A stretch of 41,146 nucleotides of DNA, taken from a virus. Below the pieces are notes generated by a model that worked only from the letters and a program-made list of their open reading frames with translations, had not been told where the DNA came from and made no database searches. Below are positions 2,030-30,888 of this stretch, one piece after another. The DNA lies in the IMG/VR virus record IMGVR_UViG_3300020477_001244, positions 1-41,146 of that record; one strand, 5' to 3'. The number at the start of each line of letters is the position of its first letter. The first letter of the stretch is position 1. The translations under genes and the position numbers were made by a program.

Positions 2030-2046
2030 CTAAGGTGAACTAACCG

Positions 2047-12396: not shown

Positions 12397-13136
12397 TATT
12401 TATCCTTTACCAGTTTATACCCTTGGGACAACATAAAATTCCAATACCAGTTGGCTTGCATGTGCCCCTCACCTGTTCTCGATGTGGCAAATGCATCTTC
12501 CCCATACTCGCTAGGCTTTAAGGAGCCCCACATTTCTTTGTCATCTTTTGGGTGTGGTGGTACATATGTCCCCAAGCCAAAGTGTTTTTGTAGAGCGTAT
12601 GAAAAGTGCATATCTTCCCCACCAGATATAAGCTTTGTACTTGGCATTTCTGCCCAATAAGCTCTCAACCATTCTCTCTCGAAAAACCAGCAGTGACCCA
12701 TTATGTCCACCTGCTCCACTTCCTCGCTTGGATTGTTGGCACAGAAAGATACGTATTGACAACCGGGGTAATTCTGATAATCATCACCAACCATTCTAAC
12801 CCCACGGCAACCTAGGAGCCCCCTGTGTGTTTTCATGGTCTCTAGGCAGTTTTCAAACCACTTTTTTCCGGGTATTGTGTCGTCATCAAAAACGCAAACA
12901 TATTCAGTGTCTGCGTTTATTGCGTATGCAAACCTAGCCCACACACCTAGATTTTTATTACAGAAGGCGGATGTGCAGTTTTCTATAACGTCACTTGGAA
13001 ATTTTTCCATCGACTCTTCGTGAAAGTTACCCCAAAACATTATCTTTGCATCGTCTATAGTTTGAGACTTAATTGCTTCATATTGTTCTTTTAGGGTGTG
13101 TGGTCTCTTATAGCCATTTAGGATTGCTGTGATCAT
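12396..13136 (-). CDS. Family 2-like (GT-A) glycosyltransferase
   Basis: 246 residues. It starts ITAILNGYKRPHTLKEQYEA, the usual first strand and helix of GT2-like enzymes, and carries a metal-binding site CVFDDDTIPGKKWFENCL at about residues 80-97. A later SGGEDMHFSYALQKHFG resembles the catalytic-base (ED) region. The product would add one sugar to a growing glycan, using an NDP-sugar. Start and stop bases are shared or overlap with neighbours on both sides. Confidence 0.75.
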   Translation of the reverse strand: MITAILNGYKRPHTLKEQYEAIKSQTIDDAKIMFWGNFHEESMEKFPSDVIENCTSAFCNKNLGVWARFAYAINADTEYVCVFDDDTIPGKKWFENCLETMKTHRGLLGCRGVRMVGDDYQNYPGCQYVSFCANNPSEEVEQVDIMGHCWFFEREWLRAYWAEMPSTKLISGGEDMHFSYALQKHFGLGTYVPPHPKDDKEMWGSLKPSEYGEDAFATSRTGEGHMQANWYWNFMLSQGYKLVKDK

Positions 13137-14056
13137 TTTTGCAAGTCCTTTATTTTCTTTTCTATTTTTGATACAAGATCTTTGTTTTGTAGCTTTGAGG
13201 CTAACCTCTTTACCCTACTAAGGCAGGTGTGGGAGGATAAAACTTTGTTCTTCACGGCTAGAGCTTTCTCTTCCCACTCTTCTTTGGGGTCTGTGTCAAT
13301 TAGTGGTAGTGGAGCTTTTAGTGAAGAATCTAGAACCTCATACATCTTATCTTTTTGGCTTTCGTATTTTGGTAGAAAGAAAACGTTTTTCCCATAAAGT
13401 ATAGAATCAAAAAGAACCTGAGGGATATCTTGCGTGTCCTGAGTAACCAATATATTCTCATACTTTCCATACAGTCCGTAGAGGTGCATTGTGGGCGCTA
13501 CGATATCCACCTCGTTTGCAAGCTCTTGGTTTGTAGAAAGGAAGTGATGTACATCAAACCCATCAGTTATATCAGAAAGCCTACCCTTGACTGTGTAGTT
13601 AGATATAACAGCGAGGTCAGCCTTATACTCAGGGGTTTCAACACTTTGTTTAGAAAGGTATATGTCAGCCCCAAGCATAATGTTAATCATTTTTGTCTTT
13701 CGTTGCTTGATGGTATTAAACGCCGAAGGACTGTTATAAAATACAAATGGGCAATTAATGCCGCTGGAATCCACGATGTCGTCGAGCTGATCTATTACAT
13801 CTTGAGTCGCCCCAGTAACATTAACTAACAATTCGATATTATTATTCTGAGAAAGGTACTTTAAGATGTCGTTAGTGAGATAACCAAAGTGTGTTATGAA
13901 AACATCTGGCTTAGTGGTGTCAAACGCATCGAAGGCGCTGCTACCATCAGGGGTCCATATATTTGCTTCCTCACCTTCCAAATCGTTTAGGGATTCACAG
14001 ATATACAGAGGCTCGGTAGACTCTGTGTTAGCGTAATTTTGTATTAGTGTTTTCAT
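13133..14056 (-). CDS. Probable glycosyltransferase, GT-B-like
   Basis: About 307 residues. The ATG at 14056 is preferred over that at 14074 because GAGG lies about 12 bases upstream; both overlap the preceding gene. The protein looks like two alpha/beta halves: an N-terminal half with FITHFGYL and LLVNVTGA, and a C-terminal half where DIPQVLFDSILYGKNVFFLP resembles the nucleotide-sugar-binding helix region of GT-B enzymes. The clear E-x7-E of GT4 is missing, so the fold call is weak. The C-terminus is Lys-rich and helical (KNKDLVSKIEKKIKDLQ-like). Confidence 0.42.
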   Translation of the reverse strand: MKTLIQNYANTESTEPLYICESLNDLEGEEANIWTPDGSSAFDAFDTTKPDVFITHFGYLTNDILKYLSQNNNIELLVNVTGATQDVIDQLDDIVDSSGINCPFVFYNSPSAFNTIKQRKTKMINIMLGADIYLSKQSVETPEYKADLAVISNYTVKGRLSDITDGFDVHHFLSTNQELANEVDIVAPTMHLYGLYGKYENILVTQDTQDIPQVLFDSILYGKNVFFLPKYESQKDKMYEVLDSSLKAPLPLIDTDPKEEWEEKALAVKNKVLSSHTCLSRVKRLASKLQNKDLVSKIEKKIKDLQK

Positions 14057-14795
14057 GCGATTTGCGAACCTCATGGTATGTTTTGATGTTACTTATTTTG
14101 GTTACTGGCTTTTGTATGTTTTTAATGACATGCACTTTGTGTTTTGTTTTTACTAGATCATTAATAGCCTCGAACATAAATTTATTTTTGTAGTCTGCAT
14201 TGGAGATTATCTTCCTAAAGGATTCTATTGTTTCTTGGTCGTGTAAAAATACTATTTCCGACCAAAGGTTTTCTATTCCAAAGGAGAGGTTTTCTGTGTA
14301 CCCTTCTTCGTTTATTGTGACCCCAACCTCAAGGTTGTTGCAGGGTTCCTGCTCTAGCATTATAAATGATTTGCCTCCGTGTACAAGAGAGAAGACCTCG
14401 GTATCCACCAGCAAGTCTCCGTTGCAAATTAATATTTTGCTATTTGTCGTGTTGTTTATACATAGTCTAACGCTTTCGCAAGAGTTTGAGTGTGGATAAA
14501 CTTGGTTCTCCACGATCCTTATATTTAGCTCCTTGTATTTTTCCCTTACAAACTTGACTACCTTCTCGCAGTCAAATCCACCGCATATTATAAGCTCAAA
14601 GCTTGAAAAAACGCTTTTGAGTGATGCTATTTGTCTGTCTAGCAATGTTGCCCCGCCAAACTTTATCAATGGTGTGGGGCCATACGACTTCATCCTGTGC
14701 CCCGCCTTTTCACAAAGCAATACAACCGTTATAAAGTCGTCCATTCTTTCTGATTCTTGCCGTGGAGACGTTACGAATCCGTGTTGTTTTCTCAT
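14028..14795 (-). CDS. Nucleotidyltransferase-like protein, atypical P-loop
   Basis: 255 residues. The region VVLLCEKAGHRMKSYGPTPL matches the N-terminal signature of NTP_transferases (L-x-A-G-x-G-x-R-M-x-P-x-T-x-x-x-PK-x-L), but the glycine loop is replaced by CEKAGH and the PK-x-L lysine is not obvious, so catalysis may be altered or lost. SKILICNGDLLVDTEVF is the expected metal-binding strand (GDL). It would activate a sugar-1-phosphate. The start forms an ATGA overlap with the upstream stop; ATG 14744 is an alternative that removes a 17-residue leader. Confidence 0.62.
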   Translation of the reverse strand: MRKQHGFVTSPRQESERMDDFITVVLLCEKAGHRMKSYGPTPLIKFGGATLLDRQIASLKSVFSSFELIICGGFDCEKVVKFVREKYKELNIRIVENQVYPHSNSCESVRLCINNTTNSKILICNGDLLVDTEVFSLVHGGKSFIMLEQEPCNNLEVGVTINEEGYTENLSFGIENLWSEIVFLHDQETIESFRKIISNADYKNKFMFEAINDLVKTKHKVHVIKNIQKPVTKISNIKTYHEVRKSHENTNTKLR

Positions 14796-15529
14796 ATCGT
14801 AAGGTGTAGTCCTTGAATCTTCGCTTCATTTTCGATATCTTCTTCAAACGCCTGATAGTCATAATAGTCTCTGTATCTTATATTTAGAACCATAAACATC
14901 ACAACCTTGAGGCCATTGCAGTCAAAAAACACACACTTCTCAAGATCTTTATTTATTGCGTCGTTTATTTTTGTGAAAGCGTCCTTTGGTATCTTTTGGC
15001 CAAACTTGACCCGACTGCAAAAAGAGTTTTTCGCTGCGTGCTTGAAGCTTTCGTGATCCCTAAATCTTTCTGAGCCAAAAACAACGACTACTGCATTTAT
15101 TCCAGATGCTACCAAGTCGTCGCAGAAACTAGCGACTATTTGCTTTTGTTTTCCTTTGTACGTTTTGTGGGGTTGCGACACAACGATATTAAACTTAGTT
15201 CTGTCATAGTCTATTTTTAGTATGTCCTTTTTTGTCTTTTCTACCTGCTTCTCTTTTATCTCGTCTGCGTATATCACAATGGAAAAGGTTTTCTTGCACT
15301 GGTCCTCAACGGTTTCTAAATCTGTTTTTGTTCCGTTTTCCCTAAAGTAGTTACACACTGACTTAACAACATAAAACTCTTTGTCATCGTCGTATGCCTC
15401 GAAAACCGAATCGCCAAACTTTTCTATTCTCCCAGCTTCACACCCCACTTGTATATTGCCATCGTAAACAGCAAACATACAATCTTTGCAGCTAGTTTCG
15501 AGCTTATTCTCTTGATGCTTCGATTTCAT
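14792..15529 (-). CDS. Unknown protein with N-terminal cysteine motif
   Basis: 245 residues. Near the N-terminus are C-x2-C at SCKDCMFAVYDG, then a third Cys in VGCEAGRIEKF and a fourth in SVCNYFRE, a set that could bind zinc or an Fe-S cluster. The rest is an alpha/beta domain (FSIVIYADE, FNIVVSQPH, INAVVVVFGSERF) that might be a degenerate GT2-like fold; no DxD motif was found. It lies in the glycan block between a nucleotidyltransferase-like and a methyltransferase-like gene. Function not recognised. Confidence 0.4.
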   Translation of the reverse strand: MKSKHQENKLETSCKDCMFAVYDGNIQVGCEAGRIEKFGDSVFEAYDDDKEFYVVKSVCNYFRENGTKTDLETVEDQCKKTFSIVIYADEIKEKQVEKTKKDILKIDYDRTKFNIVVSQPHKTYKGKQKQIVASFCDDLVASGINAVVVVFGSERFRDHESFKHAAKNSFCSRVKFGQKIPKDAFTKINDAINKDLEKCVFFDCNGLKVVMFMVLNIRYRDYYDYQAFEEDIENEAKIQGLHLTI

Positions 15530-15920
15530 AGTAGACCCCTGATATTGTTGTCGTATTAATTTTTAAGCCAAGTCTTTGTAAAAGATCAGATACATGATTA
15601 ACATCTGAGCATGACTTGTTTCTTGAAAAAACCTTGCTGGCGTCTTGGGGTGAAATTCCACCGTTTACTACAGCCCTACAAAAAACCCTCAGGTCTGTTC
15701 CTCCAATTGAAATAGAAGAGCCCATTCGCATCTTTTGCCTGAGCTTTACTAGAAACTCCTCTATGCTTTCTATTTTTATAGCATCCAGACAGCCAGAAGC
15801 CAATATGAAGGTGCACTCGTTGTCAGAAACCTTTTCCAACTCTACGCCTTCTTCGCTTATCACGACTCTTTCGTAGCCCTGAATGTGTTCTTCATTTTCT
15901 TGCACTATATGTATTTTCAT
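15504..15920 (-). CDS. Half-size methyltransferase-like protein (138 aa)
   Basis: The order of elements (ECTFILASGCLDAI, EFLVKLRQKMRMGSSISIGGTDL, then a helical part and ISGVYYEIEASR) resembles the C-terminal half of a class I SAM methyltransferase: strand 4, strand 5, and the final beta-hairpin. The SAM-binding glycine loop is not present. It might need a partner subunit, be inactive, or be a mis-recognised small domain. It overlaps the downstream Cys-motif gene by 26 bases, and its own start overlaps the end of the GT4 gene. Confidence 0.35.
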   Translation of the reverse strand: MKIHIVQENEEHIQGYERVVISEEGVELEKVSDNECTFILASGCLDAIKIESIEEFLVKLRQKMRMGSSISIGGTDLRVFCRAVVNGGISPQDASKVFSRNKSCSDVNHVSDLLQRLGLKINTTTISGVYYEIEASRE

Positions 15921-16909
15921 TTTCTAACCTCATAAGCCAAATCAAAAATCCTATTCCAGTCATTTATAAACCGTTCCTCTGAGAATTTCTCAAGTATTGT
16001 TTTTCTAGCGTTCTCGCCTAACTCCTTGGCCAAGTCCTCGTCTTTGAACAGCTTTTTTATGTATCCACGAAGTTCTTCTTCGTCGTTGGAGATAAAACCA
16101 TTTACGCCATTTTCAATTACTTCTGGTATCATACAGGTTGCAGTGGAGACAACCGCAGACCCACACGACATAGCTTCCAATAACGAGGTTGGTACAGGGC
16201 TTAACGTAGAAGTGTTCAAAAATACCCTACACTGGTTATACTCTTCTACAAGCGCTTGTATGGATGGTGCTGGATCAGAAAGCCCCTCATTGCTTCCTAG
16301 AAGCTTTGTTGGTAATTCAGAGGTTATTCTTTTCCACCCCTCATAGTTGCAGCAATAATCCCTATTGGCAAAGTCGTTTACAACACTTAGTAAATATGGT
16401 TTAGTGTCAATGCCTAAAGGCTTAAACAGTTCACTATCTACGCTGTGGTGTATGACCTCAAGGTTTGGGCTTCTTATCTCCCATGCGTCTCGTGAGTGCT
16501 CTGATATAAATACGTTTATGTCTCCAGCCATTGTTTTTATTTCCGCAAGCCATTCGTCTTTCAGGTTGGGCGTGGGAAACGTGTGCTCCAAGGAGACTAC
16601 AGGCAAGTTTAGCTGCGTGTTTACAACAGCAGCCGTTTGGAATTGACCAAACTTGCTTTGCGAAAGAATGAAGTCGTATTTTATGCCGGGGTAAATTGCG
16701 TTGTCTGGAAGCATATAATAATTATCTGGGATCTCTGCATACTCTGTTCGCCACCGTTTCATATCGTTTGCGTTGAATACATAAAAATTATGGCCGGTTT
16801 TGGCTAGCTGCGTTTCATATCTTTCATGTGTTGAAAAAGTCAGGATATTATATTTATCCGGCTTTGGTAGAACAGCGTCTCTTATTATGTTGATGGATTG
16901 ACTAGCCAT
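15917..16909 (-). CDS. GT4-family (GT-B) glycosyltransferase
   Basis: 330 residues. The C-terminal domain carries the GT4 signature: FLNTSTLSPVPTSLLEAMSC, ending in the E-x7-E-like region, followed by GSAVVSTATCMIPEVIENGV and the typical NGFISNDEEELR and KFSEERFINDWNRIF. The N-terminal domain holds YDFILSQSKF and PVVSLEHTFPTP, the acceptor-binding side. The enzyme would transfer a sugar from an NDP donor with retention. It is the second of three consecutive GT4-type genes and overlaps its neighbours by a few bases. Confidence 0.8.
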   Translation of the reverse strand: MASQSINIIRDAVLPKPDKYNILTFSTHERYETQLAKTGHNFYVFNANDMKRWRTEYAEIPDNYYMLPDNAIYPGIKYDFILSQSKFGQFQTAAVVNTQLNLPVVSLEHTFPTPNLKDEWLAEIKTMAGDINVFISEHSRDAWEIRSPNLEVIHHSVDSELFKPLGIDTKPYLLSVVNDFANRDYCCNYEGWKRITSELPTKLLGSNEGLSDPAPSIQALVEEYNQCRVFLNTSTLSPVPTSLLEAMSCGSAVVSTATCMIPEVIENGVNGFISNDEEELRGYIKKLFKDEDLAKELGENARKTILEKFSEERFINDWNRIFDLAYEVRK

Positions 16910-18026
16910 TGATATACTCCTTCATCATATTCCCGATGACTTCATAGGAAAACTTCTCTGCCTGCTTTAGTCCAGCAAACCTATCTATGTTGTCTCTGTT
17001 TTCGTAATAGTACCTCATGGCTTTCTTTATTTCAGACTCGCTTGGGCTAAACCACTCTTCTCTACCCGTGAATATATCTGGAAAAGCTGCGTCTGTACAT
17101 TGACACACGCTAAAGTTTCCGCCGACACATGTGCCAGTTGAGGGGTTGTCTTTATCTATAAAATCTTTGGGTCCACCAAAGCTACTGCATATTGGAGTTT
17201 TACCAAAAGCCATAGCCTCAAAGGAAGGTATTGACCAAGCCTCCCCGTGAGTTGGGGACAGGAAGCAGTCTCCATATTGGTGCAAAGCTTTTATTCCTTC
17301 CCCATCTATATCTTCAGGTATTACCACCTCTGTTATATAGTCTTCCACTTGCGGATACATCCTCAGTCGGGATTTTATTTCTCGGAGCGAATGATTAACT
17401 ATCTCTTTGACTTGCTCTGGGGAACTCCCAAACCTTCTTATCTTCAATATAAGAGAGACTGGCTCTGACTTGTCAAACTCACTATGGAAGCACCTTATGA
17501 TAGAAGGGAGGTTCTTTCTGTCGTTAAGGTCCCCTATATAGTAAAACTTGAACTTATGGTTTATTTCTTCTATGGATATCTGCTGTGTGCCGGACTTATA
17601 TTTGTCCATGTTAAATGTGTGAGGGACAACCTTCAAGCTGTTAGGTACAACAAGGCCATCGTTGATAAGGCTTTGCCATAAATCCTTATTGGGCACCCAC
17701 ACCTCGTCCATTTGATGTAAATCAACGAACCAAGGGATCGTTTTTATGCTTGTTGATTCCGACACAAAAAAAGCTATGTTCTTTTTGAATCTTTTGGTTC
17801 CAACTAAGTGGTGAGGCAAAAGATGCTGTATGCAAACATCGCAGTCTCTAGTGTCTTTACTCTCTAGCTCTAATATCTTTGGGGGTACAGAACCTTCCTT
17901 GCCTGTCAACGACACGTTTCTACACACCACGTCTACACCAACAGAGTCTAGGGCCAATATATAATCTATTGCTGCCTGTGCCCATCCTGTGGATTCTCTA
18001 TAGTGTCCTAAATATAATACTTTCAT
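16902..18026 (-). CDS. GT4-family glycosyltransferase
   Basis: 374 residues from ATG 18026, chosen because the longer frame would run into the upstream gene, AGGAT lies upstream, and the product then begins MKVLYLGHYRESTGWAQA, a normal GT4 N-terminus. The C-terminal domain has FKFYYIGDLNDRKN, FLSPTHGEAWSIPSFEAMAF (the donor-site E-x7-E) and GKTPICSSFGGPKDFI, all classic GT4 elements. The role is glycan chain assembly. It is followed, with a short overlap, by another GT4 gene. Confidence 0.82.
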   Translation of the reverse strand: MKVLYLGHYRESTGWAQAAIDYILALDSVGVDVVCRNVSLTGKEGSVPPKILELESKDTRDCDVCIQHLLPHHLVGTKRFKKNIAFFVSESTSIKTIPWFVDLHQMDEVWVPNKDLWQSLINDGLVVPNSLKVVPHTFNMDKYKSGTQQISIEEINHKFKFYYIGDLNDRKNLPSIIRCFHSEFDKSEPVSLILKIRRFGSSPEQVKEIVNHSLREIKSRLRMYPQVEDYITEVVIPEDIDGEGIKALHQYGDCFLSPTHGEAWSIPSFEAMAFGKTPICSSFGGPKDFIDKDNPSTGTCVGGNFSVCQCTDAAFPDIFTGREEWFSPSESEIKKAMRYYYENRDNIDRFAGLKQAEKFSYEVIGNMMKEYING

Positions 18027-19717: not shown

Positions 19718-20041
19718 TTAATAATCCGTGACTTCATTTTCAACGCTTGCAAAGTCAAATTCGTTTATTCGGAATATGATGTCTCTATTATTCTTGGAAA
19801 CGTTTTTTGCCGAGGCGTGAACGTGTATTTTAGTCCCTTTTGATGCAAACTTTTCTATAGTTTCAGCTCCAGTGTGCCAAGCTTCACATCTTATAAAAGT
19901 GGGGATTCTGCTTTTTTCACCCGTACTCTTGGTCTTTCTGTACGTGTAGGTGACAAGTGTGAACTCTACTAGGCTAACCCCATTAATAGTAGAGAGTTTA
20001 GGGTCGTCTGTTAGAAACCCTGTAAACGAGCAAAGATTCAT
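19718..20041 (-). CDS. ssb: Single-stranded DNA-binding protein
   Basis: 107 residues, an OB-fold SSB without the long acidic tail of cellular SSBs. It reads CSFTGFLTDDPKLST, SLVEFTLVTYTY, FIRCEAWHTGAETIEKFASKG and KIHVHASAKN, in the order of SSB strands with the conserved W and K-G. It coats single-stranded DNA during replication and recombination. It lies at the boundary between the glycan block and the polymerase genes, starting right at the stop of a methyltransferase-like gene. The missing acidic C-terminus suggests it does not recruit host partners in the usual way. Confidence 0.85.
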   Translation of the reverse strand: MNLCSFTGFLTDDPKLSTINGVSLVEFTLVTYTYRKTKSTGEKSRIPTFIRCEAWHTGAETIEKFASKGTKIHVHASAKNVSKNNRDIIFRINEFDFASVENEVTDY

Positions 20042-20601
20042 TATTTCTTCCTTAAGTCAATCACGCCAACGTCGTTGGCTACTTGGTGTATTTCGACAGT
20101 GTAATCCTCTGAAACGCTTTGGTTGTCTACTAGCGTGCCTTTAATAGAGTAGTCATCAATAAGCACAACAGATTCGGTATGTTTAATTTTGTTGAATTGA
20201 TCTAGTGTTTCTTTGGGGTCGTTTCCCCCGTCTAAGTAGTATATATTATAACCATCTTCGATGTGGTCTATAGCATCACCGTAGATTGTTTCTAGGGGAT
20301 ACCCCTTCTTTTGTGAAGCTAGTTCTGACTTTGCTATATTATCTAGGTTTATATCTACCACAGTGAGCTTACCACCAAACTCATTGATGTAATCGCCCCA
20401 CACTAAGTCGCTCCATCCAGAGCCAATCCTCCACTGGACATTATACGTTTCTATAGCTCCAACCTGAAAGACTGAAACCGGAGACGAGTCAAAGCTTTCT
20501 AATACCGCGTGAAACACTTTGTCCCGACTCGGTATGTTTGATGGTAAACTATTGCTTTTTCCCAAGAATAAAACTTCGTGGGCGAAATCAAACTCTTCCA
20601 T
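20041..20601 (-). CDS. SAM-dependent methyltransferase-like protein
   Basis: 186 residues. A Rossmann-type order is visible: SVFQVGAIETYNVQWRIGSG in place of the SAM glycine loop, LTVVDINLDNIAKS (acidic strand end of motif II), IYGDAID, then NIYYLDGGNDPKETLDQF and SVVLIDDYS, as in Methyltransf_24-type enzymes. The glycine loop is unusual, so activity is not certain. It shares its stop with the ssb start. The 52 bases upstream hold a GATAGGGA that may serve as ribosome-binding site. Confidence 0.6.
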   Translation of the reverse strand: MEEFDFAHEVLFLGKSNSLPSNIPSRDKVFHAVLESFDSSPVSVFQVGAIETYNVQWRIGSGWSDLVWGDYINEFGGKLTVVDINLDNIAKSELASQKKGYPLETIYGDAIDHIEDGYNIYYLDGGNDPKETLDQFNKIKHTESVVLIDDYSIKGTLVDNQSVSEDYTVEIHQVANDVGVIDLRKK

Positions 20602-20653: not shown

Positions 20654-22225
20654 TTAAATTTCAAATATTGTATTAACTATGAAAGAATCATCTTGTTTTG
20701 ATGCAGCTCCGCTAAAAAGCAGATTGTTTCCCTCGTATAATAAATACTTAAACTTATCCCTACAGTCGGGGAAAACGATAACGCTGTCCAAAGAACAGGT
20801 TTCATCTTCTATGGTTAAAAAAGCCATAGTTTTTCCCGTAGACTTACCCTTGTTTATTTTGTAGTCTGAAACTCTTTTTATGTGTCCTGCTATAAGTATG
20901 TTTTTTCCACGCTTTCCATCTAGCAGCTCTTTGCATGTTGTGTTTGCCCCAGACGTGTCAGACGTTTCTATCTTAGACATTGAAACTGGACATCCGAGGA
21001 ACTTTACCTCTTGGTCTACAACCCAGTCTGGGTCATCCGATAGGCTGTATGGAGGGTTATTTAAAAAGTGTATTTCGTTGTTAACTGCCTGACTGCGTTC
21101 AGCCCTGTGTGTTCCCCCACCCTCTTTTTTGGTTGGAGCTAAATCTGTCAAACAATCAATTAGGGTCTTCCACCTTGAGTTGGCATAGTTTTCTTCTACC
21201 CACTTTTGCTCCGCTTTAGTCAGGCCCCTGTAAATTTCGTATTCATACAGAGCTTGGTTTCTGCTGACATGATCTTTAAAGCCTCTGAAAAAGCCTACTG
21301 ATGCTAAGGCTTTAAAGGCTGTTGAATTAACTTTCTTTGTAAAGAAAATCAAAATCTCCATCCAGAAGAAGTTGTCTGCTGTTTTTCTAAGTTCTTCTTC
21401 TAGCTCTCTAACGCCACTGACAACTTTGTCGCCTGTTTTGCCGGTTAGGGACTTTACATCCTTTACCCCAAAATATATGTTATCGCCATTGATACTAAAC
21501 TTATCGCTAAAGTTTGTTATGTTGGGCGTCTTTATGTTTATATCAAATAGCTTTGCATCGTAAACTAATTCATAAGTCTCTTCGTGTGTGTCTTGTTTTT
21601 CGTTGGCGTTGTAAAGGTATGCCAAGAAGAATTCTAGGGTGTGGTGAACCTTGTAGTATGCACTCCAGTATGAACACATGGCATAAGCAACTGCGTGGGA
21701 CTTGTTGAACGAATATCTAGACGACTTTTCAATCCAACTAAAGATTTCTTCAGCCTCTTCTTTGCTAACAATGCCCTCATTGGAAGCTCCTTTCAGAAAA
21801 GACTTCTTAACCTTAGCCATTAGTCCAGCCTTTTTCTTCCCGATGGCCTTTCTTAAAACGTCTGCCTCTTGAAGGTCGAAGCCTGCTATTTTCTGTGCTA
21901 TTCTCATGGACTGCTCTTGGTACACAAGAACTCCATGTGTTGGCCTTAAAACGTCTTCCAAGGACTCGTGAAGGTACTCAACCTCCTCTAGACCGTGTTT
22001 TCTATCAATGTACCTCTGTGTCATTGATTTACCATCTTGGATTGCTTTTAGACACCCCGGCCTGATCAATGCAACCAGAGCCGCAAGCTCCTCAAGATTT
22101 CTGGGCTTAAGCTTTTTAGACCAAGATTTACCAAGGTTACTTTCTAGCTGAAACACCCCCTTGGTTCTTCCTTCGTGAAATAGCTCCCAAGTTTTTTCGC
22201 AATTATAATCAATTGACTCAGACAT
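20654..22225 (-). CDS. dnaE: DNA polymerase III alpha subunit, C-terminal half
   Basis: 523 residues from ATG 22225, preferred over a TTG at 22243 because GGTGA sits 5 bases upstream and it gives an 8-base overlap with the exonuclease gene. The first recognisable DnaE phrase is TKGVFQLES, which in intact DnaE follows the palm domain; then LVALIRPGCL, YQEQSMRIAQKIAGF, ADVLRKAIGKK (fingers) and YSFNKSHAVAYAMCSYWSAY. Further on are a helix-hairpin-helix-like region and an OB domain (NILIAGHIKRVSDYKINKGK). It has fingers and accessory domains but none of the three catalytic aspartates, so it must work with the product of 22888-24528. No intein motif at its N-terminus. Confidence 0.88.
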   Translation of the reverse strand: MSESIDYNCEKTWELFHEGRTKGVFQLESNLGKSWSKKLKPRNLEELAALVALIRPGCLKAIQDGKSMTQRYIDRKHGLEEVEYLHESLEDVLRPTHGVLVYQEQSMRIAQKIAGFDLQEADVLRKAIGKKKAGLMAKVKKSFLKGASNEGIVSKEEAEEIFSWIEKSSRYSFNKSHAVAYAMCSYWSAYYKVHHTLEFFLAYLYNANEKQDTHEETYELVYDAKLFDINIKTPNITNFSDKFSINGDNIYFGVKDVKSLTGKTGDKVVSGVRELEEELRKTADNFFWMEILIFFTKKVNSTAFKALASVGFFRGFKDHVSRNQALYEYEIYRGLTKAEQKWVEENYANSRWKTLIDCLTDLAPTKKEGGGTHRAERSQAVNNEIHFLNNPPYSLSDDPDWVVDQEVKFLGCPVSMSKIETSDTSGANTTCKELLDGKRGKNILIAGHIKRVSDYKINKGKSTGKTMAFLTIEDETCSLDSVIVFPDCRDKFKYLLYEGNNLLFSGAASKQDDSFIVNTIFEI

Positions 22226-22895
22226 ACAAATCACCATCTGCAAATGCTTTATCTATAGTTAGTTTTCGGTATACTGACCTGTGTGTTTTCATGAATTTTA
22301 TCATGATATTGGCCGTATCCTTAACATCCTGAAGTGCGTCATGCGCGTTATCTTTGCTTAGGCCCATGCGTTCACGGAGTGAATCCATGCTAATTGATTT
22401 TACAGATGGGTCTCCCTCCGTCCACATAAACATATTGTCCATCATGTCTATTTTATATATCTTATGAAACAGTTTTTGCTTCTGAGAATCTTTGTCCCAA
22501 GGGCCGTAAGCCTTGCATAACCTGTTTATAATCACCATGTCGAAACCTATGATGTTAAAACCGGCTGGTATTGGGGCAAACCACTGGGTTCCCTTCCAAT
22601 TATACTGTTCTACAAATTTAACAAACTTTTTCCAGACAGCCTTTGGGCTTGGTGCCTTTGCTAGGTCTTCTCTGTTTTTTCCTGTGATCCTTAGGGCTTC
22701 ATCTTCTAGTGGGTCTAGTCCTAGACTGATGGCTTTTTCATCGTCCAGAATAGGTTTCATCTCACTGTTGAAGGTTCCCTTTAGCTTAAAGTTTCTTCCG
22801 TCCAGAGCTAAAGCCGCAAGCTGTGTGGGCTGTGTGGTCACTGGGTTTCTGGAGCCGGTCTCAAAGTCAAACACTATTATATCTCTATTAGCCAT
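22218..22895 (-). CDS. DnaQ-type 3'-5' proofreading exonuclease (DEDDh)
   Basis: 225 residues. Exo I is IVFDFETGSR (D and E metal ligands), Exo II is GFNIIGFDMVIINR, and Exo III is NAHDALQDVKDTANI with the His-x4-Asp of DEDDh enzymes. It would remove mispaired 3' ends for the polymerase. The gene lies exactly between the two DnaE halves, overlapping each by 8 bases (ATGGCTAA upstream, ATGTCTGA downstream). The position suggests it is made in step with both polymerase halves and joins them as a proofreading subunit. Confidence 0.88.
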   Translation of the reverse strand: MANRDIIVFDFETGSRNPVTTQPTQLAALALDGRNFKLKGTFNSEMKPILDDEKAISLGLDPLEDEALRITGKNREDLAKAPSPKAVWKKFVKFVEQYNWKGTQWFAPIPAGFNIIGFDMVIINRLCKAYGPWDKDSQKQKLFHKIYKIDMMDNMFMWTEGDPSVKSISMDSLRERMGLSKDNAHDALQDVKDTANIMIKFMKTHRSVYRKLTIDKAFADGDLYV

Positions 22896-24528
22896 TCAAA
22901 ACTTCCTCAATTTTCATTATCTTATCCAAAAGATTAATACCTAAAACATCAAATTTAACATGACCCAAGCTCTCTAAGTCGGCCATTTCTAGTCCAGCGA
23001 TCTTTTCTCCACCGCTTTTCTGATCTACCATTGGACACACATTATACAATTTCTCTGAGGATATTACAACACCTGCTGCGTGTTTTCCCTGAGTCTTGAA
23101 CGTGCCCTCTATTCTTATTGCTTGGTCAAAATACTCTGCATAGTCGCCCTCTAGGTCTCCAGACTCTGATACAAAGCAGTAGTCCTGAAGCTCTTTTTGG
23201 TTGTTTATTAATGCCCACTTGATTATTGACCTGTCTTCTTCGTCCATCATTTGTAGCTGATCAGAAACATCTGCTTCGTTAGGGATGTGTTTTGATATCT
23301 CATTCATCTCACCAAAAGAACAGGCTTCATTAACTCTTAGCACTTCTTTTATTGCGCTTCTACCTTGCAGTCTTCCAAATGTTAGCATTTGACTAACGTT
23401 GTGTTTTCCATACGTGTCCTTTAGATAGTCAATTATTTCATCCCGTTTCTTTCCGGGGACATCAATGTCAATATCTGGTAGAGAGATATTTCCAGCGGTG
23501 TTTCTTCCGCTGTTGTAAAACCTTTCAAACAGTAAGTCAAACTCAATCGGGTCGATTTTTGTTATGCCTACGAGATAGGATATCAAGCACCCTGCGGCTG
23601 AGCCTCGCCCCGGACCAGAAAGCCAACCCTTGCCATTCACGAAATTAATTATATCTCTAACTATCAGAAAATAACCAAATAGGTTTGCGTCGTTTATAAC
23701 ATCAAATTCTTTGTTGAATCTTTCTAGATATATATCCTCGTCTTCCTGATCTTCGACCTTACCTGTCTTCAGGAGAAACTCACGCCAACCTTCTCTGCAT
23801 AGCTGTTTAAGATATTCTTCTTCTGACTCTCCGCTTGGGGTTGGAAAAGCTGGTAGCATTGGTGGGCTGAGAATGTCATATTCCTCACACTTATCTACTA
23901 TCTCTTTCGCTGAGTCAATCTGGTTATCAGAACAACCCAGAAGGACCTCGACGATTTCTTCTCTATTCTTTACGTTTAGGTCGTTTCTATCAAAGAACTC
24001 TTGTAGTTCAATGTGATCACCCTTGGATAGAAGTCTGTTTACTTTGGGCATGGTTGTTTTCATTTTTGAACATAGAAGGATTCTGTGTAGTGGAGCATCT
24101 TCCTTCTCTGTGTAATATGTGTCCATCAGCGCTGGACTTTTTTCGTAGAAGTCGTCCCCTTTTATTGGAGACCTGTCAAGGCTTTCAGCCACACAGATAA
24201 GGTTCCCGTTTTCACATATTGCTCTTAAGGTTTTTACGGGGACGTTGCCTTGTTCATCTAGAGAGGAGACAAGCTGGATTAAGTCAAACCACCCGCTATG
24301 ATTTTTTGAGAACAGCGTGTAGCCATCAAAAGAACAGCCTATGATAGGTTTGATGCCTTCGCTCTGGCAGGATCTGTAGAAAGAAACTGCTCCAGATATG
24401 GACTTGTAGTCTGCTATTCCACAAGCCCTGTACTTATTTTCTTTACATTTTTTTGCCAGTTCAGCGGGCTTAGAGAAGCCTCTGAGTAAACTGTAGTGCG
24501 TATAATTGCACAATGGAGACCAGTCCAT
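22888..24528 (-). CDS. dnaE: DNA polymerase III alpha subunit, N-terminal half (PHP + palm)
   Basis: 546 residues. The PHP domain (about 1-240) has lost its metal ligands: the usual H-x-H and DHG motifs read NYTHYSLLRG and ADYKSISG. The palm is intact: GPGRGSAAGCLISYL (305-319), PDIDID (351-356; D352, D354), HAAGVV (483-488) and KFDVLG (D527), which supply all three catalytic aspartates. The protein stops at EEVLNG, 19 residues after D527, where intact DnaE would continue to the fingers. No split-intein sequence is seen. AGAAGGAACGC before the ATG is the ribosome-binding site. Confidence 0.88.
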   Translation of the reverse strand: MDWSPLCNYTHYSLLRGFSKPAELAKKCKENKYRACGIADYKSISGAVSFYRSCQSEGIKPIIGCSFDGYTLFSKNHSGWFDLIQLVSSLDEQGNVPVKTLRAICENGNLICVAESLDRSPIKGDDFYEKSPALMDTYYTEKEDAPLHRILLCSKMKTTMPKVNRLLSKGDHIELQEFFDRNDLNVKNREEIVEVLLGCSDNQIDSAKEIVDKCEEYDILSPPMLPAFPTPSGESEEEYLKQLCREGWREFLLKTGKVEDQEDEDIYLERFNKEFDVINDANLFGYFLIVRDIINFVNGKGWLSGPGRGSAAGCLISYLVGITKIDPIEFDLLFERFYNSGRNTAGNISLPDIDIDVPGKKRDEIIDYLKDTYGKHNVSQMLTFGRLQGRSAIKEVLRVNEACSFGEMNEISKHIPNEADVSDQLQMMDEEDRSIIKWALINNQKELQDYCFVSESGDLEGDYAEYFDQAIRIEGTFKTQGKHAAGVVISSEKLYNVCPMVDQKSGGEKIAGLEMADLESLGHVKFDVLGINLLDKIMKIEEVLNG

Positions 24529-25211: not shown

Positions 25212-26420
25212 TTAAAATAACTGTTTAATGATTTTCCCACTATTCGCTATCCTCATAGGTCTTCCGCTATTGCTTGTGAATGTAGTTTGTGTTGACACCC
25301 CCAGAGCCTTACATATCGAAGCCATTACGTCCTGAGATTGATAGGGTTCACTTTCTACGGATGTGCCATCTTTACTGGTCTCTCCTATTGCGATACCCCC
25401 GTTCATGCCTGCTCCACCGACAGCCACGCTCCAACTGCGTGCCCAGTGGTCTCGCCCAGCATTTCCATTTATTCTTGGTGTACGGCTAAATTCTCCCATC
25501 CATATGATAGCCGTATCTTGCAGCAAGCCTCTTTGCTCTAAGTCTTCGATCAAGGCGCTCATGGCCCTATCCAACACCGGTAGCTTTGTGTCTCTAAGGG
25601 TTGGGAATATATTCTGGTGATTGTCCCAGCCCCCTAGGTTGACCTCAACAAATGGCACACCGGCTTCCACCAGCCTTCTGGCCATCAAACACCCCTTGCC
25701 AAAATTGTTGTTTCCATAACGCTCTTTAACTTCTTCCGGTTCACTGTCAACCTTCATAGCGTCCATCTTTTCGCTTGTTAAAACATCGAAAGCTTGCTTA
25801 ATAACATCTCTATGATCTTTGGCGGCACTGCCTCTGTTTTGTTTTATAAAGTTATTCTCTATTAAATCTAAAGTAAACGCCCTCTGGTAAAACCTTTGGT
25901 CAACTTTGATATCTAGATTTTTTACTCTTCCATTGCTACTCACCACAAACGGCGCGTATTTCATTCCTAGGTATCCTGCTCCAACACTACTGCCACCAAC
26001 TGATATAAATTGAGGTATAGCAAGATCTTCTCTTTTTAGCTGATGAGAAAGCACCGCACCATAACTAGGGTGTTTCATCTGTGGGTTTGGCACATATCCA
26101 GTGTGCATGTAGTATCTTCCACGCATGTGATCGGCTTCTCGCGTGCTCATTGATCGAACAATAGACATGTTGTGCATTTGTTTTGCCATCATGGGCATGT
26201 GTTCACAGATTTGCATGTCACCGGTTGTTGATATAGGCTTGAATGGACCTCCGGTTGGCGCGTCTGGCTTTAGATCCCAGATGTCCATAGTGGAAGGGCC
26301 ACCGCCCATCCAAAGAAGTATTGCAGACTTGTTTTTCTTGGTCATTTCTTCTGCTTGGAGGCTTAATGCGTCCATGAATGGAAGCGAAGAAAAGCCAGCT
26401 AAAAATTTACGTCTATCCAT
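25212..26420 (-). CDS. DUF1501 protein 1, Tat-exported
   Basis: 402 residues. N-terminal twin-arginine signal DRRKFLAGFSSLPFMDALSL. Family motifs in order: LLWMGGGPSTMDIWDLKP (metal/nucleophile region of the alkaline-phosphatase-like fold), HPSYGAVLSHQL, AGYLGMKYAPF, CLMARRLVEAGVPFVEV, GGWDNH, WMGEFSRTPRIN and GRDHW. DUF1501 proteins are predicted members of the alkaline phosphatase/sulfatase superfamily, common in Planctomycetota, with no settled activity. This copy keeps the full GGGPS-x2-D-x-WD motif. Its start shares a base with the stop of the upstream small gene (TAATG), with GAGGAG before it. Confidence 0.88.
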   Translation of the reverse strand: MDRRKFLAGFSSLPFMDALSLQAEEMTKKNKSAILLWMGGGPSTMDIWDLKPDAPTGGPFKPISTTGDMQICEHMPMMAKQMHNMSIVRSMSTREADHMRGRYYMHTGYVPNPQMKHPSYGAVLSHQLKREDLAIPQFISVGGSSVGAGYLGMKYAPFVVSSNGRVKNLDIKVDQRFYQRAFTLDLIENNFIKQNRGSAAKDHRDVIKQAFDVLTSEKMDAMKVDSEPEEVKERYGNNNFGKGCLMARRLVEAGVPFVEVNLGGWDNHQNIFPTLRDTKLPVLDRAMSALIEDLEQRGLLQDTAIIWMGEFSRTPRINGNAGRDHWARSWSVAVGGAGMNGGIAIGETSKDGTSVESEPYQSQDVMASICKALGVSTQTTFTSNSGRPMRIANSGKIIKQLF

Positions 26421-26653
26421 TACTGCTCCTCTTTTATCATTAATTCCGCAACGTATCCAGCCAAATCTTTGAAATATGGATGTTGCTTGTCTTTCCAGTC
26501 TTTAAGCATCTGTGTTAACCTTTTGACAATAGCTTTCTCTTCTTCAGTAAAACCGTCAAGCCCGTCTCCCCCAAAAGAAAGAAAGTCAGCGGCTTCTATA
26601 ATGCTCATGAATCTTTTGTCATCTTCATCTCTTCTTTTTGATGGAGTGGGCAT
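26420..26653 (-). CDS. Small unknown protein in the DUF1501 cassette (77 aa)
   Basis: No signal peptide or membrane helix. An acidic/hydrophobic N-terminal part (IIEAADFLSFGGDGLDGF) is followed by an amphipathic helix EEEKAIVKRLTQMLKDWKDK and a second helix DLAGYVAELMIKEEQ. It reads like a compact cytoplasmic helical protein. It lies between the secreted proline-rich gene and DUF1501 copy 1, sharing a base with the latter. No family recognised. Confidence 0.5.
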   Translation of the reverse strand: MPTPSKRRDEDDKRFMSIIEAADFLSFGGDGLDGFTEEEKAIVKRLTQMLKDWKDKQHPYFKDLAGYVAELMIKEEQ

Positions 26654-26662
26654 CTTGTCTCC

Positions 26663-27088
26663 TTAAAATCTAAATTGGAAAAAGAAGTGGGGCTGAACAG
26701 GGTATGCTGGGTATACGGGCTGTGTCGAATGATAATGGTAAAAAATGCTCCAATTTTGGTATACAGGATGGGGGTGTGCATATCTATAGTAATAGGGGTT
26801 ATAGATAATTACAGGCCCTCTGTTCCAGTTGTAATTTCTTTGTACCTGAGGTGGTTGAGGAGGTCTTTGCCACTCTTGTTTACCAAATCCCAGAGGTCTT
26901 TGTGTGGGTCTACCAAAGTCTCTAGGTAGTTGTGGCCTCACGGTGGCTGGGGGTGAAACAACCCTTCGTTCCTGAGGCGATTGCGGCCTCGCAGTAGTTG
27001 GAGGTTTAATGACCTTACGTTCAGGCTGTTCTGCGTTTACATAAAGTGGCACAAATAGTAAACATAGTACTGATGTTAAATATTTCAT
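26663..27088 (-). CDS. Secreted Pro/Tyr-rich protein with internal repeat
   Basis: 141 residues. A Sec-type signal peptide (KYLTSVLCLLFVPLYVNAEQ, likely cleaved after NA-E) is followed by two imperfect copies of a unit of about 20 residues, ERKVIKPPTTARPQSP and ERRVVSPPATVRPQLP. A segment rich in Tyr, His and Pro follows (YNPYYYRYAHPHPVYQ), and the protein ends FFFQFRF. Such low-complexity chains are usually surface-exposed, extended or adhesive. Its start shares a base with the stop of DUF1501 copy 2, so it is co-expressed with that enzyme. Confidence 0.6.
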   Translation of the reverse strand: MKYLTSVLCLLFVPLYVNAEQPERKVIKPPTTARPQSPQERRVVSPPATVRPQLPRDFGRPTQRPLGFGKQEWQRPPQPPQVQRNYNWNRGPVIIYNPYYYRYAHPHPVYQNWSIFYHYHSTQPVYPAYPVQPHFFFQFRF

Positions 27089-28371
27089 TATACTAACTCC
27101 TTAATTGGCTCTCTGTGATCAAGAAGATATTGTGGTCTTCCAGTTCTGTCTAGTAGTGTTGTAGACATGGTATCAATGCCAAGTGCGCGATACATTGTGG
27201 AACACACCTCTTGAATATGTACGGGTCTTGACTCTGGAACTTCACCAAGTCTATTCGTCTCCCCGATGGTTTGACCATGATTAAAACCGCCGCCAGCAAT
27301 AAGGGCACATGACACCTGAGGCCAGTGATCTCTTCCACCATTTTTGTTAATCTTTGGTGTTCTGCCAAACTCTCCCCAGACAACAACCAGCGTGTCGTCT
27401 AACATTCCACGGCTGTCAAGATCTGTTACTAGGGCTGAAACGCATTGGTCTAGCTTTGCACCGTGATCTCTTACAAGGTCGAAGTTTGACCCGTGGCTAT
27501 CCCAGCGACCATAAGATAGCGTCACAGATCTAGCTCCAGCCTCAACGAGCCTGCGGGCCATGAGGACATGTTCATTAACAGTAGGTGCTCCGTCATACTG
27601 AAACTTAAATGGTTTTCCATCGCCGTACATTTCTCTTATCTTTGGGTTTTCTTTTGAAATGTCTAGTGCGTCAACCAGAGCGCTTGATGTTAACACCCCA
27701 AAGGCTTCTTCTGTAAATGTGTCGGAAGCTATCGAGTTGTCTATACTTTCTCTTATCTCGGAAAAACCGGCGAGAAGATCCTTCCTGCTCTTAAATCTAT
27801 CTACGTCAATGTTAAGCTTTAGGTCTTTCATCATTTCGCCATTAGGCTTAAAGGGCTTATGGGTTTCCCCTAGATATCCAGCTCCACCAGCTTCAGACCA
27901 AGGCCCATGCTGAGTTTTATTCGCTAGACCGACAGCCACTGGGACAGCAGGATCGACTGGCCCCAAAATTTTAGATGCACACGCTCCAATGGCTGGATAG
28001 CTAGTTCCAGAAACCATGTCTTTTCTGCTCCAACCTGTCACACATTGGTATCCGTCATGGCTACCGTCAGACCCAACTATAGATCTGATGGCTGTGAATT
28101 TGTCAAACATAGAGGCTATTTTAGGAAAACACTCACCTATCTGTATTCCGTTGACAGCAGTTGAGATAGGCTTGAAAGGCCCTCTTATCTCAGATGGGGC
28201 TTTTGTTTTAATATCCCACATATCTTGGTGTGGTGGGCCTCCACCTAAAAAGATGTTGATTACGGCTTTGTGTGATGTTCCAAACTTATCTTGCGCGTAC
28301 ATGACTTGGGGCATCGACAACATGCCAAGACCACCAACTGTTAAAAAGCTTCTACGGGATAAGGTTAACAT
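27088..28371 (-). CDS. DUF1501 protein 2, Tat-exported
   Basis: 427 residues. A very clear Tat signal: SRRSFLTVGGLGMLSMPQVM, ending near MYAQ. Motifs: NIFLGGGPPHQDMWDIKT, GGAGYLGETHKPF, VLMARRLVEAGARSVTLSYG, RWDSH, VVWGEFGRTPKIN, GRDHWPQVS and DRTGRPQYLL. The residue after GGGP is Pro instead of Ser, so the putative nucleophile position differs from copy 1. AGAAGGAACGC before the start is identical to the ribosome-binding region of the dnaE N-half gene. Activity unknown, probably a secreted or periplasmic hydrolase of the sulfatase/phosphatase type. Confidence 0.88.
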   Translation of the reverse strand: MLTLSRRSFLTVGGLGMLSMPQVMYAQDKFGTSHKAVINIFLGGGPPHQDMWDIKTKAPSEIRGPFKPISTAVNGIQIGECFPKIASMFDKFTAIRSIVGSDGSHDGYQCVTGWSRKDMVSGTSYPAIGACASKILGPVDPAVPVAVGLANKTQHGPWSEAGGAGYLGETHKPFKPNGEMMKDLKLNIDVDRFKSRKDLLAGFSEIRESIDNSIASDTFTEEAFGVLTSSALVDALDISKENPKIREMYGDGKPFKFQYDGAPTVNEHVLMARRLVEAGARSVTLSYGRWDSHGSNFDLVRDHGAKLDQCVSALVTDLDSRGMLDDTLVVVWGEFGRTPKINKNGGRDHWPQVSCALIAGGGFNHGQTIGETNRLGEVPESRPVHIQEVCSTMYRALGIDTMSTTLLDRTGRPQYLLDHREPIKELV

Positions 28372-28384
28372 AACTGCGTTCCTT

Positions 28385-29641
28385 CTATGTAATTAAACTT
28401 GTTATAATTTTGCCACCGTCTACAATCTCTATGGGCCTGTCGCCGGGGGCCATTAACTCCTTATCGGCAACTATTCCAATCCTGTTGTAGATAGTGGCTG
28501 CCCAGTCTTCTATATTAACTGGGTTTTCTTCTGGCTCACTGGCGGTGGGATTTGAGGTTCCGTAAATCATGCCTCTTTGAATACCTCCGCCAGCTATTAT
28601 TGTACTGAATACCTTGGGCCAATGATCGCGCCCAGCATTGCCGTTTATTTTTGGCGTTCTACCAAACTCAGAAACCACGCACACAAGAGTAGAATCTAGA
28701 AGACCTCTATCATCTAAATCCTCTACCAATGTTGCAAAGCCTTGATCAAAGGCTGGTAGCTGACTCTTCATGCCATTGGCAATATTGTTGTGCATGTCCC
28801 ATCCGCCATAGGTAAGTGTAACGAATCGCGTTCCGGCTTCAATCAAACGGCGGGCTAGTATCATTCTGGCACCAGCGGTATTTCTACCATACTTATCTCT
28901 TAATGCAGACGGTTCCTTCTCTAGATCAAACGCTTCGCTTGCTTTTACATCGCCAATTAATTTGTAGGCTTTGTTGTAGAAGGAGTTTACTGCGTTTATG
29001 GAGTCGGAAGACTCTTTTGAGTTAAACTCAGTGTTTACTATGTCTAAGACCGTTCTTCTTCTGGCAAATCTATCGTCTGACACTGGAAGCTTGAGATCTC
29101 TTACCTCAAAGTTATTACTAGCTGGGTCAGAGCCTAAGCCAAAACCTGAATAGGAGCTACTGAGGTAGCCTGTCCCAGCATACTCATTTGGCTGATTTGG
29201 TATGCAGACATATGGGGGTAGGTTGTGGCGTGGGCCAAGCTCATGAGAAACCACAGACCCCATTGAGGGGTACTGTAGTGCTGGGCTTGGTCTATAACCA
29301 GTAAACATGTTGTGAGTTCCACGCTCATGGGCCGCTTCGCCGTGGGTCATGCTTCTGATAATTGATATCTTGTCCATGACCTTAGAGGTTTTACTTAAAA
29401 ACTCTCCCAACCTAACGCCGGGGACATTGGTTTCTATGCTACGAAGTGGCCCACGATACTCCAAGGGGGCAAATGGTTTTGGATCAAAAGTTTCCTGATG
29501 AGCCATGCCTCCGGGGAGATAGATAAAAATAACACTCTTTGCCGGTCCTTCCACGCTTTCGTAAAATTTTTGGTCGGCATTAGCAAAAGATAGTCCAAAT
29601 CCGCCTAATAATCCAGCCTGCAAAAAAGATCTTCTTCTCAT
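28385..29641 (-). CDS. DUF1501 protein 3, Tat-exported
   Basis: 418 residues. Tat signal RRRSFLQAGLLGGFGLSFAN. Motifs: FIYLPGGMAHQETFDPKPFA (the GGM-x-x-x-x-TFDPKP variant common in the family), YPSMGSVVSHELG, AGTGYLSSSYSGF, MILARRLIEAGTRFVTLTYG, GGWDMH, VSEFGRTPKIN and NAGRDHWPKV. The metal-ligand-like residues in WD-x-H, EFGRT and GRDHW are all kept. It starts at an ATGA overlap with copy 4's stop. The divergence among copies suggests old duplications or separate acquisitions. Confidence 0.88.
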   Translation of the reverse strand: MRRRSFLQAGLLGGFGLSFANADQKFYESVEGPAKSVIFIYLPGGMAHQETFDPKPFAPLEYRGPLRSIETNVPGVRLGEFLSKTSKVMDKISIIRSMTHGEAAHERGTHNMFTGYRPSPALQYPSMGSVVSHELGPRHNLPPYVCIPNQPNEYAGTGYLSSSYSGFGLGSDPASNNFEVRDLKLPVSDDRFARRRTVLDIVNTEFNSKESSDSINAVNSFYNKAYKLIGDVKASEAFDLEKEPSALRDKYGRNTAGARMILARRLIEAGTRFVTLTYGGWDMHNNIANGMKSQLPAFDQGFATLVEDLDDRGLLDSTLVCVVSEFGRTPKINGNAGRDHWPKVFSTIIAGGGIQRGMIYGTSNPTASEPEENPVNIEDWAATIYNRIGIVADKELMAPGDRPIEIVDGGKIITSLIT

Positions 29642-30888
29642 AATATTACCTTTGCTTCTCCTTCTAGTAGATATCTAGGGCGACCACCGTTGTCAACCTT
29701 TTGAATGTTTTTAGGAATTCCGAAGTGGTCAAACATGGTGGCGGCAACGTCAATAGGACCAAATGGGCTTTCTATTGGTGAGTATGATTTATCTGCCGCG
29801 CCTATTACTCTTCCACTTTCGTATCTCCCGCCAGACATGAGCATCGTGGAAATAGACGGCCAGTGATCTCTACCGGCGTTCTTGTTGAGTTTGGTACGCC
29901 CAAATTCACCAGTGACAACCAAGAGTATCTTTTCATTGAGACCCCTCTGGTGAACATCTTCAACAAATGCGGCCAAAGCCTTATCTATTGGCGGAACTCT
30001 ACCTTTTAGGGCGTTGGCAATATTGCTATGCATGTCCCAGCCACCATAGTGTATTGTCACGAAGCGTGTTCCGAATTCACATAGTCTTCTAGCCAAAAGA
30101 AGCTGCTGACCAATAGAGTCTTTGCCATATTTCTCCTTGATTTTTTCATCTTCTTTGTCTAGATCAAAGGCGTCTTTAGCTGTCCCAAGAATCACATCAA
30201 ATGCCTGCTGATTAAACTTTGTTACAGAGTTAGCAGATGGGCTTGGTATGTTAACGCCTTCAAGCGATTTTAGTAAATCGTTTCTGTTGGTAAACCTACT
30301 AACGTCCACCCTTGGTGTTAGATTGTCTTTGTTAGAAGGGTCAAAGGGCTTATATGCTCCACCCAACCAAGCTGGGTCTTCTCCCTCAATCTTGCCCTGC
30401 TTTACATATGTAGGAACACCATTTTTAGGATTATTGGCACCATAAATCGCAGATACAATAGACCCATGAGAGGGGAACATAGAGTTAGAGGTTTGACTTC
30501 TCTCTTTATTGTAATGAGAGGTCATCATCCAGTGGGTGGCTTGTCTATGCGAGGAGTCTCCATGAGTAAAAGAGTCCACCACGTTTAGCTTAGGAGCTTG
30601 CTTTATTAAGCTTTCCCAGTGTGAGCCAAAAGCCATTCCCGTGGGCTTATCAATAAGGGCACCGCCAACGGAACGATACTCATCGGGAACGGAGTCTTCT
30701 TTTGGAGCGTGGAAGGTTTCAAACTGAGTTGGTCCACCCCCCAGCCAAACCCACACAACTGAGCTATCTTTAAGTTGAGATTGTTCCTGTTGAGCCAAGG
30801 ATATGTCTGAAAGCCCGATGGCTGATAAACCACCTCCAATAGCACCAACTCTTAAGAAGTCCCTTCTGTTAGAATAAAAATCTATCAT
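29638..30888 (-). CDS. DUF1501 protein 4, Tat-exported, divergent active-site region
   Basis: 416 residues. Tat signal NRRDFLRVGAIGGGLSAIGL. It keeps HYGGWDMHSN, TGEFGRTKLN and NAGRDHWPSI, but the first motif reads LGGGPTQFETFHAPK, where the usual (F/W)D is FH, so one predicted metal ligand has changed. This is the first gene of the cassette; GAGAGGG lies about 10 bases before its ATG, and 27 bases separate it from the nuclease gene upstream, so it is probably transcribed with the replication genes. It may be the least canonical enzyme or have a binding role. Confidence 0.85.
   Translation of the reverse strand: MIDFYSNRRDFLRVGAIGGGLSAIGLSDISLAQQEQSQLKDSSVVWVWLGGGPTQFETFHAPKEDSVPDEYRSVGGALIDKPTGMAFGSHWESLIKQAPKLNVVDSFTHGDSSHRQATHWMMTSHYNKERSQTSNSMFPSHGSIVSAIYGANNPKNGVPTYVKQGKIEGEDPAWLGGAYKPFDPSNKDNLTPRVDVSRFTNRNDLLKSLEGVNIPSPSANSVTKFNQQAFDVILGTAKDAFDLDKEDEKIKEKYGKDSIGQQLLLARRLCEFGTRFVTIHYGGWDMHSNIANALKGRVPPIDKALAAFVEDVHQRGLNEKILLVVTGEFGRTKLNKNAGRDHWPSISTMLMSGGRYESGRVIGAADKSYSPIESPFGPIDVAATMFDHFGIPKNIQKVDNGGRPRYLLEGEAKVIL

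Follow-up and report, generated by a model that had tools for sequence, protein, structure and literature searches.

Split replicative polymerases described so far

Replicative polymerases of the C family are nearly always made of a single long chain. The locus described here belongs to an IMG/VR virus record (IMGVR_UViG_3300020477_001244), whose 41,146 bases form the window analyzed throughout the text, and encodes the alpha subunit of a DNA polymerase III (Pol III) in two genes, with a gene for a DEDDh 3'-5' exonuclease placed in the gap between them. That phage replicative polymerases can be split in two is already known. In the T4-like Aeromonas phages 25 and 44RR the polymerase consists of gp43A and gp43B, which, in the case of phage 25, have been shown to co-purify and to be active (PMC2988022), whereas phages of OM43 possess a split PolA (PMC10580990) and MIJ3 a PolB with a split intein (PMC6892783). 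As is very likely for the alpha of the window and its relatives (hereafter, the clade), gp43A/43B and the OM43 PolA are replicative polymerases formed by two co-acting polypeptides, some of them with homing endonucleases at the break; unlike it, they belong to family B or A, are broken at another position and have no gene for a proofreading exonuclease in the gap.

Among C-family enzymes, a split minimal Pol III alpha, produced as two proteins with no splicing described, is present together with a PolB in the group 2.2 jumbo phages (PMC7824862). In these phages the split enzyme is limited to the catalytic core, its genes are distant and a family B polymerase accompanies it, whereas the clade has an alpha extending from the PHP to the OB domain, gathered in one block in nearly all members, and no PolB in 14 relatives inspected. 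In cyanobacteria dnaE is also distributed over two genes, and "fractured genes" with split inteins have been reported (Dassa 2009, as cited in PMC6892783 and PMC11766414), but the break point of the cyanobacterial gene is a different one and the break in the clade is without an intein. The cases most similar in position are those of two cultured phages, Corynebacterium phage P1201 (gp59/gp58) and Rossellomorea phage phiT1 (gp20/gp18), in which two adjacent genes, both annotated as coding for a DNA polymerase, are divided between palm and fingers as in the clade. However, both phages fall outside the clade and represent independent splits, and the gap holds nothing in P1201 and a 49-amino acid (aa) open reading frame (ORF) in phiT1, with no exonuclease in either.

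With respect to the bacterial DnaE of known structure (Escherichia coli, 2HNH and 5FKV; Taq, 2HPI and 3E0D; Mycobacterium tuberculosis, 7PU7), the clade has the same series of domains from PHP to OB, the same catalytic Asp and fingers motifs and the same fold. It differs in that alpha is encoded by two genes, and not as one polypeptide, in every informative member, in that the PHP domain is shortened and, in the subclade of the window, apparently without the usual metal-site motifs, and in that the canonical internal clamp motif is mostly not found. No earlier description of the arrangement was found in the openly licensed literature. What is new is a large clade of single origin whose alpha extends from PHP to OB, is always encoded by two genes, has a DEDDh exonuclease gene in the gap and is the only polymerase found.

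The three-gene locus and its relatives

A first-pass annotation, made from the letters of the window alone, had proposed a PHP-plus-palm part, an exonuclease and a fingers-plus-OB part, joined by two 8-base overlaps. Pfam domains and relatives confirm this anatomy, and both junctions are indeed overlaps of that length. In the direction of reading, the features are:

22888..24528, minus strand: N-half of alpha, 546 aa, PHP plus palm/thumb with the three catalytic Asp (PF02811, PF07733)
22888..22895, minus strand: 8-base overlap ATGGCTAA between the N-half stop and the exonuclease start
22218..22895, minus strand: DEDDh 3'-5' exonuclease, epsilon-like, 225 aa (PF00929, phrog_192)
22218..22225, minus strand: 8-base overlap ATGTCTGA between the exonuclease stop and the C-half start
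20654..22225, minus strand: C-half of alpha, 523 aa, fingers plus HhH plus OB (PF17657, PF14579)

The N-half matches PHP (PF02811, 1.9e-14) and DNA_pol3_alpha (PF07733, 2.2e-69), and the catalytic Asp of its palm are D352, D354 and D527, located in the PDIDxD and KFDxLG motifs. The exonuclease matches RNase_T (PF00929, 7.6e-12) and phrog_192, "DNA polymerase exonuclease subunit" (1e-22), with D10, E12, D119, H185 and D190 as its DEDDh set, while the C-half is recognized by the fingers (PF17657, 9.9e-48) and HHH_6 (PF14579, 6.5e-06) models. The ORF list opened the C-half at an upstream TTG (22243); it is sensible to take instead the ATG at 22225, inside ATGTCTGA, as the start.

In 20 close relatives, with 63-83% identity in the N-half, the N-half, the exonuclease and the C-half are separate genes in all cases. 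Wider scans, based on alignments of the three proteins and of distant members, led to 409 fetched loci. The same gene order, which the annotation had suggested looking for in related phages, was seen on one strand in 372 of these, and nearly all the exceptions are contig ends or additional breaks within a half. A further scan with the exonuclease gave the same order in 70 out of 79 loci, four others having an extra break in the C-half and the rest being contig ends or cases with a distant part. In fact, parts absent from a fetched stretch turned up 6-9 kb away on follow-up: in the records G004 and G005 the N-half is located upstream, at a distance of ~6 kb from the exonuclease, and the C-half of G006, itself interrupted, lies ~9 kb beyond it. 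Dereplication at 95% identity left 188 genomes which, with the window, make 189, and the same palm/fingers split is found in all the informative viral-contig relatives, down to an alpha identity of ~42%. An intact dnaE was also looked for in close relatives, and no fused alpha was found among the viral-contig relatives in the 409 loci, from scans that retained the best 80 loci each, so that fused alphas outside the clade are under-sampled. In one record (G003, IMGVR 3300024358_000009, 206 kb) two three-gene sets are present (L164 and L342), one of them with a split intein; this record could be two joined genomes.

All 189 genomes share without change the catalytic Asp triad of the palm, the GRGS residues and the DEDDh set of the exonuclease, and the columns inspected in the fingers show little or no variation. 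Moreover, the median ratio of nonsynonymous to synonymous substitution rates (dN/dS) in close pairs is 0.052 for the N-half, 0.022 for the exonuclease and 0.030 for the C-half, and the distances calculated on the three proteins run parallel (Mantel r 0.92, 0.87 and 0.88). Among the cultured phages of INPHARED, searched with three N-half, one C-half and two exonuclease queries, none with the exonuclease in the gap was found; the best alpha identity was ~34%. A distant relative of the exonuclease (~23-28%) occurs in Bacteroides and Chryseobacterium phages; the surrounding stretch that was fetched contains neither half of alpha. In bacterial genomes, matches were limited to two contigs of metagenome-assembled genomes (MAGs), one belonging to a SAR202 MAG that has a fused dnaE of its own on a different contig, the other, of 3.6 kb, to a Flavobacteriales MAG; with only two such contigs, no host is indicated.

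Position of the cut, predicted structure and origin of the split

When aligned to the solved alphas, the N-half ends at about residue 566 of E. coli and 626 of Taq, and the C-half begins at about 591 and 652, respectively: the cut is at the boundary between the palm and fingers domains. In the window, the N-half terminates with KFDVLGINLLDKIMKIEEVLNG and the C-half opens with MSESIDYNCEKTWELFHEGRTKGVFQLES. The cut is uniform in the relatives, with the N-half mostly ending 12-25 residues past KFDxLG and the C-half starting 14-33 residues before TKGxFQL. The site of the cyanobacterial intein, FNKSH, corresponds to residues 173-177 of the C-half, inside it and away from the cut, as the annotation had correctly noted in distinguishing the two break points. 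Furthermore, a short Cys-rich (CGC) extension is found at the N-terminus of the C-half in 70 of 90 members with a long N-half (long-N) and in 1 of 96 with a short one (short-N).

Each half was folded alone with AlphaFold2, from alignments of 40 (N-half) and 38 (C-half) sequences, with a mean predicted local distance difference test (pLDDT) score of 92.2 and 91.8, respectively. Foldseek matched the model of the N-half to Pol III alpha (4jom, query TM-score (TMq) 0.79; also 5fkw, 2hnh and the Taq structures 2hpi and 3e0d) and that of the C-half to full-length alphas over ~540 columns (7pu7, TMq 0.70; 3e0d, 0.66; and E. coli). According to these models, each half folds into a group of domains that matches its share of a fused alpha, and fingers, HhH and OB are present in the DnaE order (PF17657, PF14579 and Foldseek). 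The PHP fold is present in the N-half of the window, although degenerate and shortened, according to both Pfam and Foldseek. Four PHP metal-site motifs were searched: 98 of 99 short-N members, including the window, match none and the other one matches a single motif, whereas some are kept in most long-N members. If these motifs are lost in short-N members, proofreading would be left to the exonuclease.

In a tree to which 12 fused bacterial and phage alphas were added as outgroup, a branch with a value of 100 in the Shimodaira-Hasegawa-like approximate likelihood ratio test (SH-aLRT), the only support measure used, separates the split clade from the fused sequences; the root of the clade is not fixed, and P1201 and Cellulophaga phage phiST are long branches. 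A split at the same boundary occurs in phiT1, where products of 573 aa (gp20) and 469 aa (gp18) flank the 49-aa ORF, and in P1201, where gp59 and gp58 overlap. With both phages included, the tree requires three changes to explain the palm/fingers split, the exact placement of P1201 being unsure because of its long branch. Bacillus phage Jayan and phiST are split elsewhere, inside the N part.

Function, competing explanations and neighbouring genes

Exactly one Pol III fingers domain is present in each of 14 relatives of 105-230 kb, and neither PolA nor PolB was found in these records, which are not known to be complete. Since the split alpha is the only polymerase found in them, it is very likely the replicative enzyme of the phage. 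The three-part polymerase foreseen by the first-pass annotation is thus well supported by its conservation, by strong purifying selection and by its being the sole polymerase found in the 14 large relatives, and the locus very probably encodes an obligate two-polypeptide replicative alpha together with a separate epsilon-like exonuclease, assembled post-translationally. In such an enzyme, alpha would stay permanently as two polypeptides, cut at the palm/fingers boundary, which would bind each other non-covalently once translated; the palm of the N-half would supply the metal site and the fingers of the C-half would grip the nucleotide and the template. The exonuclease, retained in the same gene block, would bind the two halves and proofread for them as a separate epsilon-like subunit while the enzyme copies the phage genome.

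Some observations weigh against this picture. The canonical internal clamp motif, Q-x-x-[LMI]-[FY] past residue 330, is absent from 170 of 189 C-halves, where non-canonical motifs are possible, and no DnaN match was found in the 14 large relatives, so that processivity is left unexplained. Another type of polymerase might lie outside those possibly incomplete records, although this is unlikely in all 14. In addition, the exonuclease is linked to the polymerase by parallel divergence and gene order only, which would be expected of any vertically inherited block, and the picture as a whole is drawn from genes and from halves folded singly.

Other explanations have been considered. A decidedly improbable one assigns an accessory or repair role to the split polymerase and leaves the copying of the genome to another viral or host polymerase. 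The group 2.2 jumbo phages, where a split minimal Pol III coexists with PolB (PMC7824862), offer a precedent for it, but the polymerase content of the 14 large relatives speaks against it, as does the presence in the window of genes for a DnaB-like helicase, a primase, a single-stranded DNA-binding protein (SSB) and a RecA-like protein. The chance that the split derives from a sequencing error, a frameshift or a decaying gene is negligible. Extra breaks, possibly errors, do occur in L084 and L145; however, 189 dereplicated genomes share the split, a whole gene lies in the gap, the catalytic residues are invariant and dN/dS is 0.02-0.05, so that the frameshift check invited by the annotation gave no refutation and an assembly error is ruled out. 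It is also very unlikely that a cryptic split intein joins the halves into a full-length alpha by trans-splicing. Genuine inteins do exist in the same genes of relatives: the C-half carries a split intein with a Hint domain at FNK|C...N|SHS in L199 (6641-9530) and L341 (8786-11781), the N-half carries one at GPGRG|C...HN|SAAG in L279 (2044-5120; also in L292), and a contiguous HNH-type intein interrupts the C-half of L041 (8331-10679; RPG|C...HN|C). The halves of the split inteins are separated by a free-standing ORF, coding for a Vsr-like endonuclease in L199 and L341 and endonuclease-like in L279, according to the layout of the "fractured genes", at sites other than the palm/fingers break. 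It is the presence of these inteins elsewhere that makes their absence from the palm/fingers break meaningful. No intein motif is found at either break of the window, as the annotation had stated, and the ends of the halves in the relatives are too short for an N-intein of ~100 residues. Moreover, the ends of the halves in the window, once joined, give a 35-residue linker, whereas that of two fused bacterial DnaE has 44-46 residues, and the Cys-rich extension that opens the C-half of many deep members, which might speak for a splicing element, is without a C-intein ending (HN/S-C-T). An intein at the break was accordingly rejected, for want of both space and motifs. A group I intron was rejected as well, given that the 8-base overlaps leave no space for it and that Rfam had no match in the window and five other loci.

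The overlaps themselves suggested that coupled translation is the purpose of the arrangement and fixes the three products in a 1:1:1 ratio, a proposal of the first-pass annotation that is unsupported in general and must be regarded as unlikely. The window has an 8-base overlap at both junctions and some relatives retain overlaps of -8, -11 or other short lengths, but the junction between N-half and exonuclease overlaps or is within 10 bases in only 54 of 181 dereplicated relatives, that between exonuclease and C-half in 69 of 156, and both are tight in 47 of 154 distinct exonuclease loci, the others having genes or spacers in one or both gaps. The overlaps are therefore not conserved. The intervening cargo includes EndoVII/HNH endonucleases, a nuclease-like family without Pfam match, the uracil-DNA glycosylase UDG and others, and in G004, G005 and G006 two parts stand ~6-9 kb apart. 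As for the shared form of the two overlaps, ATGNCTRA, it was rejected as a special signal: it also occurs at non-junction sites of the window, overlap length varies in the relatives, and any 8-base overlap that includes a start codon has this appearance. The alternative origin put forward in the annotation, that insertion of the exonuclease gene split alpha in the ancestor of the clade, is a possible, albeit tentative, explanation and is compatible with an obligate two-polypeptide enzyme. It is favoured by the position of the exonuclease, which all the informative clade members have between the two halves, and by the single origin of the clade; on the other hand, P1201 and phiT1 were independently split at the same boundary without an exonuclease, and the gap is a hotspot of endonuclease genes, so that the first event may have been a break made by a homing endonuclease, with the exonuclease arriving afterwards.

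Taken at its widest, the evidence may plausibly, although still short of probably, describe an old lineage of large uncultured phages having an obligate two-polypeptide C-family polymerase plus exonuclease as the only viral polymerase, in which neither DnaN nor a canonical clamp motif was found and about half of the genomes sampled have lost the metal-site motifs of PHP. If this is true, the palm/fingers boundary would be a point where C-family polymerases split naturally, as has happened independently at least three times, and the mechanism of processivity may be new. The alpha halves of the lineage differ by up to ~65% in sequence, yet no re-fusion was seen. The fact that at least two cultured phages have independently acquired the same cut makes the idea of a natural split point testable, and P1201 and phiT1 are cultured systems suited to reassembly tests. 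Furthermore, this single gene block brings the splitting of genes together with homing endonucleases and split inteins.

Downstream of the C-half the window encodes an SSB, whose position is kept in most of the close relatives L002-L021 as part of a replication gene block:

19718..20041, minus strand: SSB, downstream of the C-half (PF00436, 7.5e-11)

The primase, DnaB-like helicase and RecA-like protein are also encoded nearby, together with a PD-(D/E)XK nuclease, a deoxynucleoside monophosphate (dNMP) kinase and PhoH. A 186-aa gene without family is found beside or within the polymerase block (window 20041-20601; L005, 7613-8137; L021, 12417-12995), its position shifting among relatives. Four clustered DUF1501 genes (at 25212, 27088, 28385 and 29638), an unusual cargo for a phage, occupy positions 25212-30888 of the window, and positions 1-18000 hold an extended series of glycosyltransferase, epimerase, methyltransferase and HAD/nucleotidyltransferase genes.

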